Shown: one piece after another, positions 38,464-44,832 of the stretch
Position numbering within the stretch: position 1 is the first letter of the stretch
Layout of the letters: each line of letters begins with the position of its first letter
Origin: Halapricum desulfuricans
GTDB lineage: Archaea > Halobacteriota > Halobacteria > Halobacteriales > Haloarculaceae
Direction of reading: 5' to 3'
Assembly: GCF_017094465.1 (NCBI RefSeq)
Contig: NZ_CP064791.1
Coordinates: 1,426,001-1,490,000 of the forward strand
DNA: 64,000 bases
Position numbers and translations under genes: made by a program
Notes under the pieces: model-generated
What the model was told of the DNA's origin: nothing
Database searches by the model: none
Seen by the model: the letters and a program-made list of their open reading frames with translations, nothing else

Positions 38464-38498
38464 CGCGGGCAGTTGCCGTGACCCTGCGGTGAACCGCA

Positions 38499-38597
38499 TC
38501 GGGGTCAAGTGGTTCGAGAGACTTCGTCTCTCGTCATCACGGAAATCGAAGATTTCCGGACGACCCCGAGGCACTCGGCCTGCTCCGCCTGTAGAAA
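38499..38597 (-). repeat. three-way-junction repeat element, copy A
   Basis: On the minus strand this segment matches 44380-44477 at about 83 of 97 positions by eye. TCGGGGTC (38499-38506) pairs with GACCCCGA (38562-38569). Inside are two perfect 8-bp hairpins: CGAGAGAC/GTCTCTCG (38515-38533, 3-nt loop) and CGGAAATC/GATTTCCG (38540-38558, 3-nt loop). On the plus-strand 5' side, TGACCC (38479-38484) could instead pair with GGGTCA (38502-38507), giving a competing fold. The function is unknown: terminator, structured RNA or transposon end are all possible. Confidence 0.75.
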
Positions 38598-44379: not shown

Positions 44380-44479
44380 TTCTACAGGCAGAGTAGGGCG
44401 AGTGCCTCGGGGTCATCCGGAAATCAAAGATTTCCGTGATCACGAGAATCGAAGATTCTCGGACGACTTGACCCCGAGG
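44380..44479 (+). repeat. three-way-junction repeat element, copy B
   Basis: CCTCGGGGTC (44405-44414) pairs with GACCCCGAGG (44470-44479) as a 10-bp closing stem. Inside are CGGAAATC/GATTTCCG (44418-44436) and CGAGAATC/GATTCTCG (44443-44461), each a perfect 8-bp hairpin with a 3-nt loop. Compared with copy A, the second arm changes two base pairs in a compensatory way, so pairing is conserved while sequence is not. It begins 12 nt after the phaC stop and merges into the repeat element below. Confidence 0.78.
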
Positions 44480-44832
44480 GTGAAGCCCGTCACCCGTGCA
44501 GCAATCCAAGCAATTAATATAACAGAGATACTACGTGGTTGTAACGGTCAGAGAACACCCTCTAAAGGCGGAGTTGCAGACCTCAATTCCGCGCTGGCCG
44601 TGTCGCAGATTTGGAAACGTGGCCCCTCTCAACACGGTCCATTGGGCGTGAGACGGGGGTTTCAACGGGTCGAGTGGAGCGACCGACCTCCACGGACACA
44701 CGCGGTGTGTTCGGGTGTGAATTCCAGCCGACCCCTTCACTGGGGAAGGTCGGAGGGAATTAAATTCCCTTGCCGGGCGCGGTGCCGACCCTAAACAGGG
44801 AAGCCTCGGGGCTTGTCCCCGAGGTACTTCAC
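44400..44832 (+). repeat. non-autonomous IS605-like repeat element, copy B
   Basis: This is the plus-strand relative of the element at 25695-26073. It starts at the GAGTGCC of the three-way structure, continues with hairpin GGGTGA/TCACCC (44478-44495) and the shared blocks at 44537-44552, 44675-44699 and 44743-44767. It ends with CCTCGGGG/CCCCGAGG (44804-44824) then TACTTCAC. No intact transposase is encoded; open frames are interrupted relative to copy C by small indels. Against copy C, the two extra hairpins sit inside the first stem-loop. Confidence 0.7.

Follow-up and report, generated by a model that had tools for sequence, protein, structure and literature searches.

Two composite elements in the window

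The window, 64,000 nucleotides of the Halapricum desulfuricans genome (NZ_CP064791.1, positions 1,426,001 to 1,490,000), contains two copies of a structured element, A and B, where an earlier note had placed them, with B on the strand opposite to A. They form an inverted repeat with arms at 38499-38596 and 44380-44477 (98 nt, 86% identity), and the conserved unit runs beyond the extent first given (Table 1). On either strand, both copies fold as single-stranded DNA into the shape that the note gave, in which a stem closes two arms of 8 bp, each with a loop of 3 nt. The folding z-scores (DNA parameters, both strands) are -3.9/-4.0 for A and -6.0/-6.7 for B, and equal stability was reached in 0 of 200 shuffles. 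The double compensatory change from GA..TC to AT..AT that the note had reported in one arm is real (CGAGAGAC-TTC-GTCTCTCG in A, CGAGAATC-GAA-GATTCTCG in B), as is the conservation of one flank; that flank, AGGCGGAGCAGGCCGAGTG, is the outer end of the transposon. The proposed closing stem GGGGTC/GACCCC mixes transposon bases with the last two bases of a module; the true transposon stem is TCGGGG/CCCCGA in A and CCTCGGGG/CCCCGAGG in B.

Table 1. Features of copies A and B in the window.
Feature	Positions	Strand	Basis
Copy A, terminal-only remnant, left end AGGCGG... to right end ...GGTTCAC, module inside single palindrome	38489..38590	-	ends as in other copies
Target motif TCTAC left of copy A	38591..38595	-	motif shared with B and most copies
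54-nt two-hairpin module, copy A	38510..38563	-	best covariance-model match, 79.9 bits, E 1.2e-19
Module A hairpin 1 (CGGAAATC/GATTTCCG, loop TTC on - strand)	38540..38558	-	sequence, folding
Module A hairpin 2 (CGAGAGAC/GTCTCTCG, loop GAA on - strand)	38515..38533	-	sequence, folding
Module A spacer TGATGA, guide-like ATGA	38534..38539	-	spacer G covaries with C of end ACCA
Copy A palindrome, loop CTTGA and 3' arm CCCCGA	38499..38509	-	empty forms L020, L022, L024
Copy A palindrome, 5' arm CCTCGGGG	38564..38571	-	empty forms L020, L022, L024
Copy B, 447-bp PATE, non-coding, IS200/IS605-type	44386..44832	+	near-identical copies; G002 pre-insertion site
Target TTCTAC 5' of PATE B, 12 nt past phaC stop codon	44380..44385	+	G002 comparison
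PATE B left-end palindrome, 5' arm CCTCGGGG	44405..44412	+	sequence comparison
54-nt two-hairpin module, copy B	44413..44466	+	covariance model 70.2 bits, E 8.1e-17; absent there in PATE copy L024
Module B hairpin 1	44418..44436	+	sequence, folding
Module B hairpin 2	44443..44461	+	sequence, folding
PATE B left-end palindrome, loop CTTGA and 3' arm CCCCGAGG	44467..44479	+	sequence comparison
PATE B right-end palindrome CCTCGGGG-CTTGT-CCCCGAGG, module absent	44804..44824	+	sequence comparison
PATE B right end TACTTCAC	44825..44832	+	sequence, G002 comparison

The outer part is a transposon end

In left-end orientation the outer part reads TCTAC^AGGCGGAGCAGGCCGAGTG-CCTCGGGG-CTTGA-CCCCGAGG (^, junction); its stem CCTCGGGG..CCCCGAGG, which closes the three-way junction, is a palindrome lying near the terminus of an IS200/IS605-family end. 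The PATE of which copy B forms the left end has such palindromes, CCTCGGGG CTTGA/T CCCCGAGG, near both ends and no transposase gene; its second palindrome and right end TACTTCAC lie at 44804-44832, and it is one of three near-identical copies in the genome (L002, L003, L004), with 98-99% identity over about 450 bp. The filled site TTCTAC^AGGC...TTCAC^ACGTC corresponds to the empty site TTCTACACGTC in the same-genus genome G002, where the sequence downstream of phaC runs through without interruption (GTCTTCTAC^ACGTCTCG, pre-insertion junction TTCTAC^ACGTC). Therefore PATE B was inserted 3' of TCTAC without target duplication, which is the manner of the IS200/IS605-type transposon family. In copy A the left end is joined directly to the right end (...GCGGTTCAC), giving 102 nt in total with a single fused palindrome as in core-deleted forms. 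Previous work described core-deleted, terminal-only forms of PATEs (PMC3119063), and by this comparison copy A is identified as a terminal-only, core-deleted PATE/MITE-type remnant of an IS200/IS605-type element. An empty site of copy A was sought in relatives and none was obtained, the region not being syntenic there. L076 (G003) and L040 (Halapricum hydrolyticum) share the element and its flank sequence.

The inner part is a separate 54-bp module

The same genome gave about 13 good matches to the query and a dozen partial ones. Among them, L020, L022 and L024 have CCTCGGGG-CTTGA-CCCCGAGG and the conserved flank with the arms absent, and at L014/L045 an IS200-type tnpA gene contains the two arms with no outer part. 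Because the outer part thus occurs without the arms and the arms occur alone, the three-way junction, which the note had taken for a single element, is a composite of a transposon-end palindrome and a separate 54-bp insertion. The module has the layout (G^)TCGTN-hp1-TGATSA-hp2-NACS'A(^C), in which hp1 and hp2 are two inverted 8-bp hairpins with 3-nt loops, and in transposon ends it sits at the base of the palindrome loop. In the tnpA ORF, the intact CTGTCG^CTAAAC (L044) stands against the interrupted CTGTCG^54-nt module^CTCCAC (L045), and in the PATE left end, the empty CCTCGGGG^CTTGACC (L024) stands against 54 nt at the same junction (L002-L004). Both pairs are exact 54-nt insertions with no target duplication; these module-only empty sites are comparisons between paralogous IS copies, and no recent insertion of the module alone was found between close strains.

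The exact empty homologue of the tnpA insertion largely refutes the view that the three-way junction is the ancestral, intrinsic transposon end, with armless forms arising by deletion and the arms being no separate mobile unit. This view does account for the CCTCGGGG..CCCCGAGG palindrome being by far the largest single context and for the modules in it travelling with their host element; set against these are the presence of the module in an unrelated palindrome family, in tnpB coding ends and in other sequence, and its absence from the right-end palindrome of PATE B and from L024, and we consider it unlikely.

In 161 of 174 distinct sites the module stood between G and C. By a simple motif count, 72 of the 174 were in the CCTCGGGG palindrome, the largest single context, 9 in palindromes of a second family (CCCACCCT..AGGGTGGG), 3 in tnpA, 24 in a promoter-linked palindromic repeat and 66 in other sequence, several of the last being variants of the first palindrome. 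The contexts include left-end and right-end palindromes, tnpA, tnpB 3' ends (a length of 18 codons often leaves the frame intact there), other hairpins and other sequence. Most of the examined copies are in IS200/IS605-type sequences and some lie outside, so that confinement to transposon ends, which the note had named as a possibility, holds only for the majority.

Cross-junction pairing of the flanks was compared with permuted pairs, and with flank clusters 0, 0, 3 and 0 of 200 permutations were as good. With coarser clusters, in which IS ends are collapsed, 4, 2, 4 and 25 of 300 were as good (2-4/300 at 10-20 nt windows, 25/300 at 30 nt), a modest hairpin target preference. Clear cases are the IS ends, L082, L193, L195 and L198. 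Strict hairpin-loop targeting at every site was only partly supported by these permutations and was rejected as a rule; insertion into hairpin loops would rather be a preference, modest overall and strongest in IS200/IS605-type palindromes.

Selection probably acts on single-stranded DNA structure

Across an alignment of 28 copies, 98.3% of the cells pair, and two-sided changes occurred in 10 of 17 tested pairs against 5.7 in shuffles, a level reached by 0 of 500 shuffles. Among 158 distinct modules we counted 2555 Watson-Crick pairs and 11 G-T pairs, G-T being rarer than other mismatches. The loops were GNA or TNC in about 120 and about 124 of the 158 modules, that is, in about 77% of loops where chance would give one eighth, and the commonest were GAA, GGA, TTC and TCC. 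Previous studies found GNA closed by C-G to be an extra-stable loop of DNA mini-hairpins (PMC4686876). Because of the strong stem covariation, the scarce G-T pairs and the GNA/TNC loop bias, the selected form is indicated to be single-stranded DNA and not RNA. Selection on structure over sequence, which the note had derived from two copies, is far more strongly supported with many. A given arm frequently shows either a loop or its reverse complement (GAA/TTC, GGA/TCC), a pattern that inversion of whole hairpins could produce.

Two further explanations bear on these structures. Selection at the RNA level, as part of an omega-RNA scaffold, a terminator or a 3'-UTR element, seems improbable to us: compensatory changes pass nearly without G-U pairs, the loops obey the DNA rule GNA/TNC on either strand, and the module, with a stop codon, lies inside a tnpA ORF, all of which weigh against the position of the window copies just downstream of genes, the overlap of some copies with tnpB 3' ends, a known source region of omega-RNAs, and the 24 of 174 sites in a promoter-linked palindromic repeat resembling an RNA gene. 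Rfam likewise gave no match in the window and only tRNAs at 10 other loci, and a tRNA/tmRNA search of the window found none. Still less probable, to the point that we give it very little weight, is an origin of the hairpin units at palindromes, by template switching or by slippage during replication, with spread by recombination alone; it would explain the tandem-unit, four-hairpin forms and the occurrence of loops together with their reverse complements, which is expected if hairpins invert, and it is at odds with the fixed length of about 54 nt, the conserved outer tags TCGT/ACSA and a G^C junction that stays the same across nearly all genera.

The module is distributed throughout Halobacteria

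A covariance model of the module was used for genome scans, as the note had suggested for its element. The module was found in 46 of 57 genomes of the source family and in 211 of 242 Halobacteria genomes, 69 of 74 genera, so that further covarying copies clearly exist. Haloarchaeal plasmids also carry it, and phage records gave merely chance 20-nt matches. In a phylum-wide sample the matches outside Halobacteria were few and weak; small genomes of another class of the same phylum (G421, G439, G448, G455) had weak matches with E of about 1e-6.

Guide-like pairing and the mobilising enzyme

The spacer base S (in ATSA) and the end base S' (in ACS'A) were complementary in 153 of 158 modules (G-C 106, C-G 47, other 5), with a mutual information of 0.80 bit, the highest among all position pairs. 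In IS608, according to previous studies, a tetranucleotide guide lies 5' of the hairpin foot, the 3' end carries a cleavage site of 4 nt, and TnpA favours C at target position +1 (PMC5934647). The module likewise has a tetranucleotide 5' of a hairpin, a matching site at its 3' boundary and C at target +1, whereas it has no transposase gene and its target constraint is reduced to G^C. The covariation of this single position recalls the guide/cleavage pairing of IS608, and could in part be due to two old subfamilies.

No RAYT scored above the NF047646 cut-off in any of the 145 Halobacteria genomes, against one in the control set, and a RAYT was rejected as the mobiliser. The Y1 transposases (TnpA proteins) of the module's own genome are of IS200/IS605 type. 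From these two results we infer that TnpA is the obvious candidate. An autonomous parent with a gene between two diverged half-modules was sought with a half-module model and none was found, the matches being nearly always paired with no convincing lone halves. Two loci with a full and a partial module at 1.3-kb spacing (C1:1175587-1176925 and C1:2533673-2535073) were rejected as the parent; both are an IS1341 (tnpB) element with a module in the end palindrome and a diverged module in the tnpB ORF.

We therefore favour, as the likely explanation of both window copies, an IS200/IS605-type end or PATE carrying an independent 54-bp mobile mini-element, probably mobilised by TnpA in trans. In single-stranded DNA, the two hairpins would stand in, in miniature, for the left and right ends of an IS608-like element, both would be recognised by an IS200/IS605 TnpA acting in trans, and ATSA 5' of hairpin 2 would serve as the guide for the end ACS'A. 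The TnpA would then excise the 54 nt and rejoin them into single-stranded DNA, putatively with a preference for hairpin targets, so that the module would insert between G and C without target duplication, mostly at the loop base of IS200/IS605-type palindromes, and would thereafter ride along whenever its host element moves.

All three PATE copies carry the same module without difference, and G002 lacks PATE B, hence the module-bearing end still moved, evidently after the split from this same-genus relative. It follows that module insertion does not abolish mobility, which counts against simple inactivation of the host. Copies A and B belong to the known PATEs and terminal-only IS605 remnants by their subterminal palindromes, lack of duplication, fixed target motif and core deletion, and are set apart by the extra 54-bp module within the palindrome, with which they nevertheless moved. 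A natural transposon end can thus accept a branched insert within its recognition hairpin.

More tentatively, and with somewhat less than even confidence, we suggest that the module is a class-wide archaeal hyperparasite: a 54-nt protein-free single-stranded DNA element, the smallest two-ended IS200/IS605-like unit, which brings along a guide base and a cleavage base, relies on the TnpA of its host transposons and enters the hairpin loops of their single-stranded intermediates. Transposon ends would thereby become three-way junctions, and the transposase would still accept them.

Relation to known elements

The note knew of no named element of this shape, which is partly wrong, as SMR-A of Haloquadratum and the bacterial REPINs are close kinds. 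We regard SMR-A as the closest kind and REPINs as the next; the module is filed under neither and appears to work like both. SMR-A of Haloquadratum walsbyi (HqIRS42/43/55) is about 110 bp long with prominent terminal inverted repeats, its movement was called enigmatic, and Dyall-Smith and colleagues, who left SMR movement unexplained, proposed inactivation of IS605-type elements as its role (PMC3119063). Compared by description only, both are short and non-coding, cause no duplication and occur in near-terminal palindromes of PATEs or IS605-type elements, whereas the module is 54 nt with two internal hairpins and occurs throughout Halobacteria, SMR-A being described from Haloquadratum only. 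Identity with SMR-A was unsupported, since the module copies of H. walsbyi C23 (G089) are in a tnpB-end-like context and not in a 110-bp repeat. These are eight copies (L258-L265) in a common context; at L260 the sequence coding for the TnpB C-terminus precedes the module, which in H. walsbyi may belong to the region of the tnpB 3' end and the omega-RNA.

REPINs or BIMEs are REP doublets mobilised by RAYTs; the REPs of S. maltophilia have an 8-bp stem, a 3-nt loop and a cleavage-guiding tetranucleotide at the hairpin foot, and some REP dimers are located inside palindromes (PMC3116915, PMC8266576, PMC3733652). As in REPINs, what is dispersed is two short hairpins in inverted orientation, and the module has the stem and loop sizes of the S. 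maltophilia REPs. Unlike REPs it has no GTAG tag at the hairpin foot (TCGTN at hairpin 1, TCGTC being a minority, and ATSA at hairpin 2) and no RAYT, and it is concentrated in IS200/IS605-type elements instead of intergenic space.

The module thus represents a REPIN-like system outside Bacteria and without RAYT, and a smaller SMR-related element in most genera of the class, whose insertion is compatible with host mobility. Its boundaries are exact to the nucleotide, and the covarying guide/end base pair suggests how it could be cut.

Variant and multicopy contexts

Four-hairpin forms (L005, L006, L007, L008 and L013 in the own genome, L038, L058, L059) consist of two tandem modules in one end palindrome. 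They are rarer than the 54-nt module, and their total of about 110 nt is close to the length reported for SMR-A. In TnpB, a diverged in-frame two-hairpin module lies near the C-terminus (...QKSSISGVRTRRSASRQRRQNAD...) at L230 (G000:C1:1174800-1178200), L231 and L235 and is absent from the tails of L209, L212 and L088, and the tnpB of L127 has a fresher-looking in-frame insertion (WFERRSLSSSRKSPIFERP). L170, L201 and L272, from different genera, have related flanks (GGCCCGGTCAA.GAGG^CCCC) and modules with different loops; they may go back to a single old insertion, orthologous in all three. A multicopy palindromic repeat (AAAGCCCCAGCCGCGAGG...CCTCGCGGCTGCCCCTTT) occurs at L270, L271, L273, L274 and L277 and in the relatives L266, L269 and L275; it is preceded by a promoter box resembling TTTATAA, contains the module in one of its arms and has no Rfam match. 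It could be a haloarchaeal RNA gene, or a mobile element, of a kind not yet characterised.
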